NCBI RefSeq assembly: GCF_902833045.1
Contig: NZ_CADFDU010000016.1
Span: 1 to 64,000 of the forward strand
Origin: Burkholderia sp. BCC0322
Lineage (GTDB): Bacteria > Pseudomonadota > Gammaproteobacteria > Burkholderiales > Burkholderiaceae
Direction: 5' to 3'
DNA: 64,000 bases
Shown piece after piece: positions 8,816 to 43,576 of the stretch. The position numbers and the translations under genes were made by a program. The notes under the pieces were generated by a model that was not told the origin of the DNA, made no database searches, and saw nothing but the letters and a program-made list of their open reading frames with translations. The first letter of the stretch is position 1. Each line of letters starts with the position of its first letter.

Positions 8816-9016
8816 CAGGGCCTCCTTCCTTGCTGAAGCGCGGCCACATCGATGCCGGCCGCTTCGGGATTCATCGCGCTGAAAAGCACGTTCGTGCTAG
8901 TCTAAAGCAAGTTTTGCGTTCGTCATGGCAACACTATTTCTGCTACTACATCGCCGCATCAGCGTGCGCTATGCGCCCGCTGCCGCAGCCCAGCCATCCG
9001 ATGGAGACACGCTCGC

Positions 9017-9808
9017 ATGAGTGCTGAACTGCTGGCCTCGCGTCCGCCCGAGAGCGAATCGACGCTCGTCCTCACGCTATCCAATCCCGGCGCACGCAAT
9101 GCGCTGCATCCCGACATGTACGCAGCCGGCATCGAAGCGCTCGCCACCGCCGAACGCGATCCCGGGATTCGCGCGGTCGTGCTCACCGGCGCCGATCGCT
9201 TCTTCTGCGCGGGCGGCAATCTGAACCGGCTGCTCGACAACCGCTCGAAGGATCCGTCCTATCAGGCCGACAGCATCGATCAGCTCGCCGCATGGGTGAC
9301 GGCGATCCACGCTTCGACGAAGCCGGTGATCGCAGCGGTCGAAGGCGCCGCGGCCGGCGCGGGCTTCTCGCTCGCGCTCGCGTGCGACCTGATCGTTGCC
9401 GCGCACGACGCGAAGTTCGTGATGTCGTACGCGCGCGTCGGCCTAACGCCCGACGGGGGCGGTTCGTGGTTTATCGCGCGCGCGCTGCCGCGTGCGATCG
9501 CGGCCGAGATCCTGTTCGAGGGCAAGCCCGTCGCAGCCGAGCGTCTGCACACGCTTGGCGTCGTCAACCGGCTCGCCGTGCCCGGCGCGGCACTGGCCGA
9601 TGCGCTGGCATGGGCCGATGCGCTCGCCGGCATCTCGCCGAATGCCCTCACGCGCATCAAGTCACTGCTCGACGACGCGACGTCGCAACCACTCGACGCG
9701 CATCTCGCGACGGAGCGCGATCATTTCGTCGCATCGCAGCATCATGCGGACGGCCTCGAAGGCATCACCGCATTTCTCGAGAAACGCCCGCCCCGCTACA
9801 AGCGCTGA
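9017..9808 (+). CDS. Enoyl-CoA hydratase/isomerase (crotonase) family protein
   Basis: A 263-residue crotonase-fold protein. Oxyanion-hole regions are visible at FFCAGGNLNRLL and AAGAGFSLALACD. At the position where classical hydratases carry a second catalytic Glu it reads GLTPDGGGS, so an Asp takes that place and substrate or reaction may differ. Related Burkholderia proteins are sometimes labelled oxepin-CoA hydrolase (alternative type) of phenylacetate breakdown, but no paa genes are near. The beta-oxidation-like cassette at 10791-14112 on the other strand is the closest functional neighbour. Confidence 0.8.
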   Translation: MSAELLASRPPESESTLVLTLSNPGARNALHPDMYAAGIEALATAERDPGIRAVVLTGADRFFCAGGNLNRLLDNRSKDPSYQADSIDQLAAWVTAIHASTKPVIAAVEGAAAGAGFSLALACDLIVAAHDAKFVMSYARVGLTPDGGGSWFIARALPRAIAAEILFEGKPVAAERLHTLGVVNRLAVPGAALADALAWADALAGISPNALTRIKSLLDDATSQPLDAHLATERDHFVASQHHADGLEGITAFLEKRPPRYKR

Positions 9809-40843: not shown

Positions 40844-42388
40844 TTATGAGCGCTGCGGATTGACCTTGTCGTCCTTCGAATGCAGCTTGTTCAGTGCGGA
40901 GATGTACGCCTTCGCGGATGCGGCGACGATGTCCGGATCGGTGCCGACGCCGTTGACGATCCGCCCGCTCTTCGACAGACGAACCGTCACTTCGCCCTGC
41001 GCCTGCGTGCCGGTCGTGATCGCGTTCACCGAGTACAGCAGCAGCTCGGAGCCGCTGCCGACTTCGCTCTCGATCGCATTGAACGTCGCGTCGACCGGAC
41101 CGTTACCGCGTGACTCGCCCGTCACTTCCTTGCCTTCGACCCCGAACACGACCTTCGCGTGCGGCTGCTCGCCCGTTTCCGAGTGCTGCGACAGCGACAC
41201 GAATTTGAAGTGCTCCTGCTCGTGCGCGAGCGCCGATTCCTCGGACACGATCGCGATGATGTCTTCGTCGAAGATCTCGGCCTTGCGGTCGGCCAGATCC
41301 TTGAAGCGCATGAACGCGGCATTCAGTTCGCTCTCGCTGTCGAGCGACACGCCGAGCTCCTGCAGGCGCTGCTTGAACGCGTTGCGGCCCGACAGCTTGC
41401 CGAGCACGATCTTGTTCGCGGTCCAGCCCACGTCTTCCGCGCGCATGATCTCGTAGGTGTCACGCGCCTTCAGCACGCCGTCCTGGTGGATGCCCGATGC
41501 GTGTGCGAACGCGTTCGCGCCGACCACCGCCTTGTTCGGCTGCACGACGAAACCGGTGATCTGCGACACGAGCTTCGACGTCGGCACGATCTGCGTCGTG
41601 TCGATGCCGACGTCGAGGCCGAAGTAGTCCTTGCGCGTCTTCACGGCCATCACGATTTCCTCGAGCGACGTATTGCCCGCGCGCTCGCCGAGACCGTTGA
41701 TCGTGCACTCGATCTGACGCGCGCCGCCGATCTTCACGCCGGCGAGCGAGTTCGCGACGGCCATCCCGAGGTCGTTGTGGCAGTGCACCGAGAAGATCGC
41801 CTTGTCCGAATTCGGAATGCGTTCGCGCAGCGTCTTCACGAGGTTGCCGTACAGCTCCGGTACGCCGTAGCCGACCGTGTCGGCGATGTTGATCGTCGTC
41901 GCACCTTCGGCAATCACGGCTTCCAGCACGCGGCACAGGAAGTCCAGGTCGGAGCGACTGCCGTCTTCCGGCGAAAACTCGACGTTGTCGGTGAACTTGC
42001 GCGCGAAACGCACCGCGAGGCGCGCCTGCTCGAACACCTGGTCGGGCGTCATCCGCAGCTTCTTCTCCATGTGCAGCGGCGACGTCGCGATGAACGTGTG
42101 GATCCGGAAGCTCTCGGCCGGCTTCAGCGCGTCGGCCGCACGCTGGATGTCCTTGTCGTTGGCACGCGCCAGCGAGCAGATCGTGCTGTCCTTCACGAGA
42201 CCGGCGATCGTGTGGATCGCGTCGAAATCGCCGTTCGAGCTGGCCGCGAAACCGGCCTCGATCACGTCGACCTTCATCCGCTCGAGGTGCTTCGCGATGC
42301 GGATTTTCTCTTCCTTCGTCATCGACGCACCGGGCGATTGTTCGCCGTCACGCAACGTCGTATCGAAAATGATCAGCTTGTCTGTCAT
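40844..42388 (-). CDS. leuA: 2-isopropylmalate synthase
   Basis: A 514-residue enzyme that condenses acetyl-CoA with 2-oxoisovalerate, the first committed step of leucine synthesis. The HMGL-like TIM barrel begins at [18 protein letters not shown] with the metal-binding Asp and the catalytic Arg; [20 protein letters not shown] carries the metal-binding histidines. The C-terminal regulatory domain that binds leucine is full length. TGGAG precedes the ATG. Its own promoter and a leucine-rich mini-gene lie upstream, and a terminator separates it from pssA. Confidence 0.97.
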
Positions 42389-42490
42389 GGGGGGCTCCAG
42401 GGCTCTTTATACGGAAGTCAAACGTAACGAGATCGCGCCACCGCTGGCGACGCTCAACAACAGACGAGGCTTGACGGGGGGCGAGAACGG

Positions 42491-42571
42491 TCAGCGCGGC
42501 AGGCGCGCCAAAGCTAGCGCGCGTAGCGGCGCACCGGCTAGAAGGAGGGAGAGGCGGGAAAATGCAGTCAT
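42491..42571 (-). CDS. Putative leuA leader peptide (26 codons, leucine-rich)
   Basis: An open frame of 26 codons plus TGA, 102 nt before leuA. It begins MTAFSRLSLLLAG and contains eight leucines, including a run of three; three of the eight use CTA, a very rare codon in this GC-rich genome, and the others use CTC (2), CTT, TTG and CTG. That is the signature of an attenuation leader whose ribosome stalls when charged tRNA-Leu is scarce. The ATG lies at or within about two bases of the start site predicted from TATAGT at 42579-42584, so it may be translated from a leaderless mRNA. No U-run terminator follows, only a 5-bp hairpin at 42436-42449, so the control step may be Rho or translation. 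Confidence 0.65.
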   Translation of the reverse strand: MTAFSRLSLLLAGAPLRALALARLPR

Positions 42572-42578
42572 GCCGACG

Positions 42579-42607
42579 ACTATAGCGGCATTCCGTTAGG
42601 TGCGCAA
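42579..42607 (-). promoter_or_regulatory. Probable leuA promoter
   Basis: On the minus strand there is TTGCGC (42602-42607), a 17-bp spacer and TATAGT (42579-42584). It lies between the pssA terminator and the leucine-rich mini-gene and points at both that frame and leuA. The -35 is weak. Confidence 0.55.
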
Positions 42608-42653
42608 TCGGACGGCACCCCGGGACTTCCAGCGGCCCGGTTCGAAAAAGGGG

Positions 42654-42685
42654 CAAAAGAAAACGGCGGCCCCAGGCCGCCGTTT
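42654..42685 (-). terminator. Terminator of pssA
   Basis: An 11-bp stem (AAACGGCGGCC with GGCCGCCGTTT, 42661-42685) with a 3-nt loop is followed on the minus strand by TCTTTTGCCCC. It makes leuA a separate transcription unit. Confidence 0.8.
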
Positions 42686-42703
42686 CCGGGCAAAAAACGC
42701 GCG

Positions 42704-43576
42704 TCAGTGATCGCGCTGCGACGAGCGCGCCGGATTCGCACGCCCGCGAATGGCCATGTAGGCCCAGAACACGTAGCCCGACAGCCCGTACAGCACGAAC
42801 AGGCAGAACAGCATCAGCGGCGGATCGGACGACACCAGCACGAACGCGACGACGACGAGCAGGATCGCCGCGAACGGCACGCGGTGCCGCACGTCGAGCG
42901 CCTTGCCACTGTAGAACGGCGCGTTCGACACCATCGTCACGCCCGCGTAGATCGTCAGCACGAACGCGACCCACGGCAGCCAGCCGAGCTTCATCGGCAC
43001 GCGGTTATCGGTAGCGAGCCACACGAAGCCCGCGATCAGCGCGGCGGCGGCCGGACTCGGCAGCCCCTGGAAGAAACGCTTGTCGACGACGCCGATGTTC
43101 GTATTGAAGCGCGCGAGCCGCAGCGCGGCGCCCGAGCAATAGACGAACGCGGCGAGCCAGCCCCAGCGGCCGAGATCCTTCAGCACCCACTCGTACATCA
43201 CGAGCGCGGGCGCGACGCCGAACGACACCATGTCCGACAGGCTGTCGAACTGCTCGCCGAACGCACTCTGCGTATGCGTCATGCGCGCGACGCGCCCGTC
43301 CATCCCGTCGAGCACCATCGCGACGAAAATCGCGATCGCGGCGATCTCGAAACGCACGTTCATCGCCTGCACGACCGCGAAGAAGCCGCAGAACAGCGCG
43401 GCGGTCGTGAACGCGTTCGGCAGCAGGTAGATGCCGCGCGTCTTCAGGAACCGCTGGCGCGCGGCGCGGCGGCTCTCGATGGGTACCGGATCGGCGGCCA
43501 TCCCCTTGTTGCGGCGGAACGGGCGTGGCGTCTGGCCGGCGCCGTTGCGCGGCCGACGCGGTTTGAATGCGGCCAT
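42704..43576 (-). CDS. pssA: CDP-diacylglycerol-serine O-phosphatidyltransferase
   Basis: A 290-residue integral membrane enzyme that makes phosphatidylserine. The CDP-alcohol phosphotransferase motif is complete (LDGMDGRVARMTHTQSAFGEQFDSLSD, with the DG..AR and G...D...D residues). An N-terminal cytosolic tail of about 50 residues is rich in Arg and Pro. Around six to eight membrane segments follow. It is 15 bp downstream of psd, the next enzyme of the same route. Confidence 0.95.
   Translation of the reverse strand: MAAFKPRRPRNGAGQTPRPFRRNKGMAADPVPIESRRAARQRFLKTRGIYLLPNAFTTAALFCGFFAVVQAMNVRFEIAAIAIFVAMVLDGMDGRVARMTHTQSAFGEQFDSLSDMVSFGVAPALVMYEWVLKDLGRWGWLAAFVYCSGAALRLARFNTNIGVVDKRFFQGLPSPAAAALIAGFVWLATDNRVPMKLGWLPWVAFVLTIYAGVTMVSNAPFYSGKALDVRHRVPFAAILLVVVAFVLVSSDPPLMLFCLFVLYGLSGYVFWAYMAIRGRANPARSSQRDH

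Follow-up and report, generated by a model that had tools for sequence, protein, structure and literature searches.

The window, the whole 64,000-nt stretch of Burkholderia sp. BCC0322 DNA analyzed here, carries the gene order ilvI-ilvH-ilvC-psd-pssA-leuA. The frames come from the ORF list and the six names are presumptive; the product of leuA is presumably 2-isopropylmalate synthase. A leucine-rich frame (uORF) precedes leuA on the minus strand, and 102 nt separate its stop from the leuA ATG (Table 1). The predicted peptide, MTAFSRLSLLLAGAPLRALALARLPR, contains eight leucines encoded, in order, by CTC, CTC, CTT, CTA, CTA, CTA, TTG, and CTG. Upstream, TTGCGC, a 17-nt spacer, TATAGT, and a further 7 nt lead to the uORF ATG. 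These features bear out the initial annotation, which had described a 26-codon frame with eight Leu codons, three of them CTA, 102 nt before leuA, an ATG near the start site predicted from a TTGCGC-17-TATAGT promoter, and a pssA terminator that isolates the unit; a terminator-like hairpin does lie upstream.

Table 1. Features of the leuA leader region in the window (position 1 is the first nucleotide of the window).
Feature	Position	Strand	Basis or remark
−35 element TTGCGC	42602..42607	−	Sequence; several relatives have TTGCGC or TTGCAC in this position (visual comparison)
−10 element TATAGT	42579..42584	−	7 nt before the uORF ATG
Leu-rich uORF, probably leaderless	42491..42571	−	26 codons plus stop; ATG at 42571, stop ends at 42491
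CTA codon 11	42539..42541	−	CTA in 56/63 genus uORFs of 26 codons
CTA codon 16	42524..42526	−	CTA in 63/63 genus uORFs of 26 codons
CTA codon 19	42515..42517	−	CTA in 58/63 genus uORFs of 26 codons
C-rich, G-poor tract	42466..42490	−	Directly 3' of the uORF stop; rut-like by composition
Strand A (CGCCCCCCGTC)	42473..42483	−	Able to pair with the 3' side of the distal hairpin
Distal hairpin GCGTCGCC-AGC-GGTGGCGC	42435..42453	−	No U-run after it
leuA Shine-Dalgarno-like GGAG	42395..42398	−	Sequence
leuA (regulated gene)	40844..42388	−	2-isopropylmalate synthase (presumed); ATG at 42388
pssA terminator-like hairpin with T-rich tail	42662..42681	−	Upstream of the unit; generic terminator scan

Within the 64-kb window, the uORF is the only ATG frame of 10–60 codons that lies 5–9 nt behind a −10 hexamer (at least 5/6 matches). 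Among 591 short ATG frames (10–60 codons, nested starts counted apart), two contain three or more CTA codons: the uORF and a frame at 8925–9020 (+), which has no −10 element before it. CTA had been described as hardly used elsewhere, and indeed the six neighboring coding sequences (leuA, pssA, psd, ilvC, ilvH, and ilvI) contain none. A generic promoter scan listed no promoter at the locus; TTGCGC matches the −35 consensus at 3/6 positions and the limit of the scan is 4. A targeted search of the interval between the uORF and leuA found no U-run terminator, as the initial annotation had stated, and a generic scan qualifies this by one weak terminator site at 42441–42424. No leader was seen by eye before ilvI in the window.

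Searches of 65 Burkholderia genomes yielded 64 fetched loci (G025, at a contig edge, was left out). The uORF is intact in all 64, with 26 codons in 63 and 28 in one, and its ATG lies 7 nt behind the −10 element in every case, in a set selected for spacings of 5–9 nt. Codon 21 of the 63 uORFs is TTG in 36, CTA in 14, and TCG (Ser) in 13. CTA accounts for 196/485 of the uORF Leu codons in the genus vs 0/1381 in the leuA stretches, many of which are partial, and for 40–57% vs 0–0.24% across Burkholderiaceae. This enrichment directly before leuA makes ribosome stalling in the uORF under leucine shortage the simplest reading. In 29 thinned Burkholderiaceae leaders, gaps in pairwise alignments are multiples of three in 388/388 cases within the uORF and in 255/1997 downstream, counts that rest on few independent events. 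A test of synonymous change in the genus was not significant (23 synonymous vs 30 non-synonymous, P 0.21).

Conservation of the frame and its distance to the promoter

To follow the leader beyond the genus, we scanned 194 distinct leuA upstream regions (213 minus 19 repeats; L104 and L109, whose leuA start was not found, were left out). A strict scan for a promoter-linked Leu-rich frame recovered 103/194 regions vs 0.5 in shuffles, and a looser one, at a Leu threshold of 15%, 141/194 vs 4.5; requiring at least one CTA in the promoter-linked frame gave 138/194 vs 1.75. An even draw across the order (160 genomes, 134 with a leuA match, 80 regions taken, one of which, L228, was too short) was scanned with a threshold of 13%. 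Here the uORF was present in 35/65 regions in a first pass, vs 4.4 in shuffles, and in 49/79 usable regions after the addition of 14 whose leuA starts had been missed by the first start pattern, or 45 without four doubtful cases. A combined set of 183 loci leaves out doubtful L216, L256, L279, L293, L194, L209, and L210, of which L216 may be real.

Order-wide uORFs have a variable N-terminus and often end in LLLRxAR-stop (the comparison covered 37 distinct L[LW]LR tails), and 22/49 order-wide loci without a terminator have a uORF of 27 codons. Their Leu codons are mostly CTG, which fills 99/111 positions at the LLL triplet. Rare codons are thus a trait of only part of the lineages, Burkholderiaceae and Comamonadaceae among them.

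The scans above already demand a −10 element 5–9 nt before the start. We therefore also picked frames by Leu content alone, which yielded 119/194 regions and 39/79 in the order draw. Hexamers that match the −10 element at five or more positions and are located 0–39 nt before these ATGs cluster sharply: 96/102 lie at 6–8 nt in the 194-region set, and 30/35 at 6–10 nt in the order draw. This clustering argues that the uORF is very probably translated from a leaderless mRNA, with a start predicted from the −10 spacing. In the 183-locus set, 173 loci have a −10 to ATG distance of 6 or 7 nt, and a Shine-Dalgarno-like motif precedes 0/183 uORFs vs 175/183 leuA genes; both figures are partly due to locus selection, because most of the space for a Shine-Dalgarno motif is taken up by the −10 element.

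Loss of the frame or its Leu codons in close relatives, which the initial annotation had named as an observation that would count against it, does not occur within the genus and does occur in part of Paraburkholderia. In L033, L034, L158, L161, and L163, from Paraburkholderia and genomes grouping with it, there is no ATG 6–8 nt behind TATAGT; in L159 and L164 this ATG is present, but the frame is different and Leu-poor. All seven keep TATAGT, and three (L033, L034, and L161) of the five viewed loci without a uORF keep the hairpin and the tract. These losses provide a natural experiment for the role of the leader. In L034 an ATG located 213 nt before leuA and 10 nt behind TATAGT opens a frame that runs through the leader into the leuA frame, by chance or as an N-terminal extension of leuA.

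The leader was also scored absent in Variovorax and Pseudacidovorax loci and in most Oxalobacteraceae loci of the set. Seven such loci (L046, L047, L055, L065, L077, L070, and L097) represent Variovorax, Pseudacidovorax, some Polaromonas, and Janthinobacterium/Duganella, and in some loci of these genera a different gene appears by eye to lie upstream of leuA. L066 was scored negative only by the 50-codon limit, as its Leu-rich frame has 53 codons. L110 has, by eye, a short frame 7 nt behind TATATT with too few Leu codons for the scan.

Two arrangements between the uORF and leuA

The leuA leader comes with either of two downstream architectures, a U-run terminator or a C-rich tract without a terminator. 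U-run terminators lie between the uORF and leuA in 44/141 loci (46 were scored, and the genus matches L137 and L144 were judged spurious and dropped), which belong to Comamonadaceae, Polynucleobacter, and Cupriavidus-type lineages; none was found in the window or in Burkholderia. In a tree of 108 leuA proteins, built by a quick method and with many weak forks, the U-run type occupies two parts, and the tract type is found at early branches and in Burkholderiaceae (L031 and L032, removed as duplicates, are labeled N although they have a uORF). This distribution agrees with intrinsic terminators having been gained at least twice.

Terminator loci with a GCCCGT arm show a match between the uORF and the terminator: the uORF tail holds ACGGGC in 18/23 vs 0.3 in shuffles. 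The codon overlapping this motif varies (AAC, CAC, or GAC) while ACGGGC itself is fixed, which points to RNA pairing. Over all 44 terminator loci, the exact match between tail and arm has a mean of 5.45 vs 4.15 in shuffles. In the GCCCGT group a tail matches its own arm better than other arms; this advantage is slight for GCCCGC loci and missing in the Cupriavidus-type group. Polynucleobacter-type tails fit the arms of Cupriavidus-type loci slightly better than Polynucleobacter-type arms. Duplex energies give a weak signal, with own arms better than cross pairs in 28/44 and P <0.05 against shuffles in 14/44; nine Cupriavidus-type loci are strong in this antiterminator test.

Loci without a terminator share a composition instead. 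The 25 nt behind the uORF stop are C-rich and G-poor in 124/138 loci without a terminator, 11/45 with one, and 30/552 control windows, counts that, like the others on the two architectures, are uncorrected for relatedness; 13/49 order-wide loci without a terminator fail the criterion. Over the first 12 nt past the stop, C and G make up 51.9% and 3.9% of the bases in order-wide loci, 57.3% and 16.8% in the genus, and 31.1% and 28.1% in terminator loci. A hairpin often starts about 25–38 nt behind the stop, with a sequence that is unrelated between families. A U-run follows the best stem in 0/22 sampled genus loci, 0/24 other Burkholderiaceae, and 2/46 order-wide loci, by a test that finds only 26/44 terminator loci and thus misses some.

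In Burkholderiaceae the distal hairpin has the form GCGUCGCC-NNN-GGUGGCGC, with loops AGC, TGC, AAC, or ATC, and both arms are identical in 74/89 leaders (18/29 thinned). The tract holds CGCCCYCCGUC or a near form, which could pair with the 3' side of the hairpin. When the 12 nt that follow the stop were masked in folding the window leader, as by a ribosome at the stop, the distal hairpin was predicted to form; with these 12 nt free, strand A paired long-range with the hairpin 3' side. In a broader folding run, the probability of the window hairpin fell only from 0.87 to 0.54. A drop of more than 0.4 was obtained in 10/22 sampled genus loci, 10/25 other Burkholderiaceae, and 3/49 others. The predicted structural switch is thus only partial in Burkholderia, and a universal switch lacks support outside Burkholderiaceae.

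Compared with shuffles, order-wide leaders fold into more stable structures (mean z −1.20; 12/49 below −2), and those of the genus sample (every third locus, 22 of 64) are no more stable (mean z −0.10). The mean unpaired fraction of the tract is 0.42 in the genus sample, 0.43 in terminator loci, and 0.63 in order-wide loci.

Related leaders and sequence families

The locus has the hallmark of a leu-type attenuator, a short ORF rich in codons for the pathway product before a biosynthetic gene. Escherichia coli and Salmonella leuL, the Rfam Leu leader (RF00512), shares with it a Leu-rich short peptide before leuA and the logic of ribosome stalling. leuL likewise uses CTA codons; it differs from the Burkholderia leader by its ordinary 5' leader and by its U-run terminator.

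None of the RNA and protein family libraries searched accounts for the leader. An Rfam cmscan of window positions 42000–43000 returned nine weak matches, none to the Leu leader, and in 20 relatives no match came up to the gathering score of its family; a known RNA family was therefore set aside. The best of the nine (23.2 bits vs a gathering score of 229) was to the Brucella sRNA CI337 at 42513–42687 (+), and we took it as chance. The window peptide had no Pfam or NCBIfam match up to E 10. A known peptide family was dismissed as well: the peptide of one relative matched two sorting-domain models, both below their cut-offs (better E 0.041). Phage records gave no match.

Leaderless leader peptides are already known from Actinobacteria and Sinorhizobium, and the leuA leader described here is a variation on them. 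Examples are Streptomyces lividans LeuL1, a leaderless Leu-rich peptide of 15 residues (MRFGLLLLSCRGEGL) before leuA that also lacks a typical Rho-independent terminator and differs from the uORF in its length, its actinobacterial host, and its end (PMC8079986), and Sinorhizobium meliloti trpL/rnTrpL, a proteobacterial leader-peptide mRNA that begins at its AUG, responds to tryptophan, and yields an attenuator sRNA with further roles (PMC10117765). The actinobacterial LEU element resembles the uORF in placing a run of Leu codons before leuA, and the same source, which also treats cys uORFs, raises the Rho idea for terminator-free leaders; unlike the uORF, the LEU element forms a pseudoknot in which the Leu codons pair with the leuA Shine-Dalgarno sequence (PMC1262725). 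Ribosomes on an upstream ORF decide Rho termination in the tna operon and at mgtL (PMC5021804), at CruR of Bordetella (PMC9426467), and at orf34/speF (PMC6386406). CruR, like the Burkholderia leader, belongs to a betaproteobacterium, and a C>G bubble is described for it (PMC9426467). The signals in these systems are tryptophan, proline, copper, and arginine, and Rho action is reported there, whereas at the leuA leader we infer it.

We found no description of a betaproteobacterial leuA leader in the open-access literature searched. A comparative study by Vitreschak and colleagues reportedly appeared in 2004. leuA is unnamed in the main text of a Burkholderia cenocepacia start-site study (PMC4603805) and in the accessible part of a Cupriavidus metallidurans transcriptome paper (PMC7563307), and no leuA leader from Burkholderia is mentioned in the accessible parts of two surveys of attenuation (PMC2965389, PMC3766115). 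A review refers to putative leaders before branched-chain amino acid genes in various Gram-negatives (PMC6123439), so parts of the present finding may already have been noted.

Control of leuA and competing explanations

In all probability, the product of the uORF is the leucine leader peptide of leuA. The initial annotation had proposed that leucine controls attenuation by way of a leaderless mini-gene; this reading is supported at the level of sequence and fits the order-wide conservation. Its guess of a Rho-dependent or translational mechanism can be narrowed: the C-rich, G-poor tract favors Rho without showing it. The tract, the missing U-run, and the precedents for upstream ORFs governing Rho together favor Rho for termination in Burkholderia. 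Predictions of RNA structure partly contradict this assignment, and we regard the odds of Rho dependence as even.

The mechanism that we propose builds on the conservation, promoter-ATG geometry, CTA enrichment, and tract composition observed here, and adds to them a start site, stalling, Rho action, and a direction of control. Transcription would start on the A of the uORF ATG or an adjacent base, and ribosomes would load on the 5' end. With leucyl-tRNA plentiful, a ribosome would pass the rare CTA codons, reach the stop, and leave; the C-rich tract would then be open to Rho, the distal hairpin would form, and transcription would stop before leuA. When leucine is short, the ribosome would stall on the CTA codons in the middle and second half of the uORF and either block Rho or let the tract pair with the 3' side of the hairpin, so that polymerase would reach leuA. 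Several points count against this scheme. With the usual footprint, a ribosome stalled at the Leu codons would reach only to about the stop codon, which would leave the tract uncovered. In addition, the tract in Burkholderia is not predicted to be especially open, its unpaired fraction being close to that of terminator loci. Further points are the partial structural switch, the lack of extra folding stability in the genus sample, the non-significant synonymous test, the Paraburkholderia loci that retain hairpin and tract after losing the uORF, and the exceptions to the tract criterion on both sides. Taken as a whole, from leaderless initiation through stalling on CTA to Rho control of leuA, the scheme may or may not hold, with neither outcome favored.

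Attenuation might instead be structural throughout, the Burkholderia distal hairpin acting as an imperfect intrinsic terminator and strand A as the antiterminator, as in the relatives with U-runs. Those relatives carry their terminators at the same place in the leader, the ACGGGC matches point to pairing of uORF tails there, and in Burkholderia the hairpin 5' arm has strand A as a competitor for one partner. The near-complete lack of U-runs behind the best stems, in a test that misses some, and the weak duplex energies of the antiterminator test nevertheless make this reading unlikely. We consider it quite improbable that control is translational, with the leader folding after uORF stalling or completion so as to hide or free the leuA ribosome site. 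A GGAG-like site precedes leuA in the 175/183 loci mentioned above, and CTCC, which could pair with it, occurs within 25 nt behind the stop in 40/64 genus loci, 18/25 other Burkholderiaceae, and 17/49 order-wide loci vs 1/45 terminator loci; in the actinobacterial LEU element, Leu codons pair with the leuA Shine-Dalgarno sequence (PMC1262725). However, CTCC arises by chance in a C-rich tract, it is missing from the tract of the window and from 32/49 order-wide loci, and the U-run relatives point to transcription as the controlled step.

Two further explanations were considered. If the hairpin sequence were a DNA operator that binds a regulator, with the uORF incidental or only tuning the basal level, the identity of the inverted-repeat arms in most Burkholderiaceae leaders and the survival of the repeat in three of five viewed Paraburkholderia-type loci without a uORF would be accounted for. 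Yet no regulon-like spread of the pattern was seen in 10 genomes: eight carry it at leuA and at 0–2 scattered sites that differ in the inner bases, one carries it only away from leuA, and one lacks it. As the hairpins of other families are also unrelated in sequence, we rejected this very unlikely idea. That the uORF is a functional small protein that merely happens to lie before leuA is extremely unlikely: its C-terminal LLLRxAR-type end is conserved, and a drug-resistance function is reported for the Sinorhizobium leader peptide peTrpL (PMC10117765), but the N-terminal half of the uORF peptide is variable, rare codons are used in some lineages, the place before leuA is fixed, and no Pfam or NCBIfam family matches it past its cut-off.

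Returning to the leaderless leucine leader with Rho control, we tentatively extend it, with somewhat more doubt than belief, to an ancient betaproteobacterial device. In this joint reading, a leaderless leader, often of 27 codons and ending in LLLRxAR-stop, would abut a Rho loading tract, sense leucine starvation, and control leuA via Rho, and two or more lineages, among them Comamonadaceae/Sphaerotilaceae and Polynucleobacter/Cupriavidus, would have coupled it anew to intrinsic terminators that are unrelated in sequence. One sensor would then serve two termination machines. Leucine synthesis in many betaproteobacteria would be under a leaderless peptide unmatched in the RNA and protein family libraries searched, providing a natural comparison of one stalling sensor with a U-run terminator and with, probably, Rho. 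A change of attenuator termination machinery would become directly testable, and the leader would be a clean case of leaderless initiation as a regulatory input.

The 3' end of the uORF is itself conserved at the level of bases in L217–L292, many of which share CTGCTGCGC-NNN-GCGCGC-stop, and Arg is CGC in 37/37 distinct tails. By eye, these L217–L292 tails contain possible small GC hairpins in shifted registers, and the order-wide tail may serve as a hairpin for pausing or as an arrest motif.
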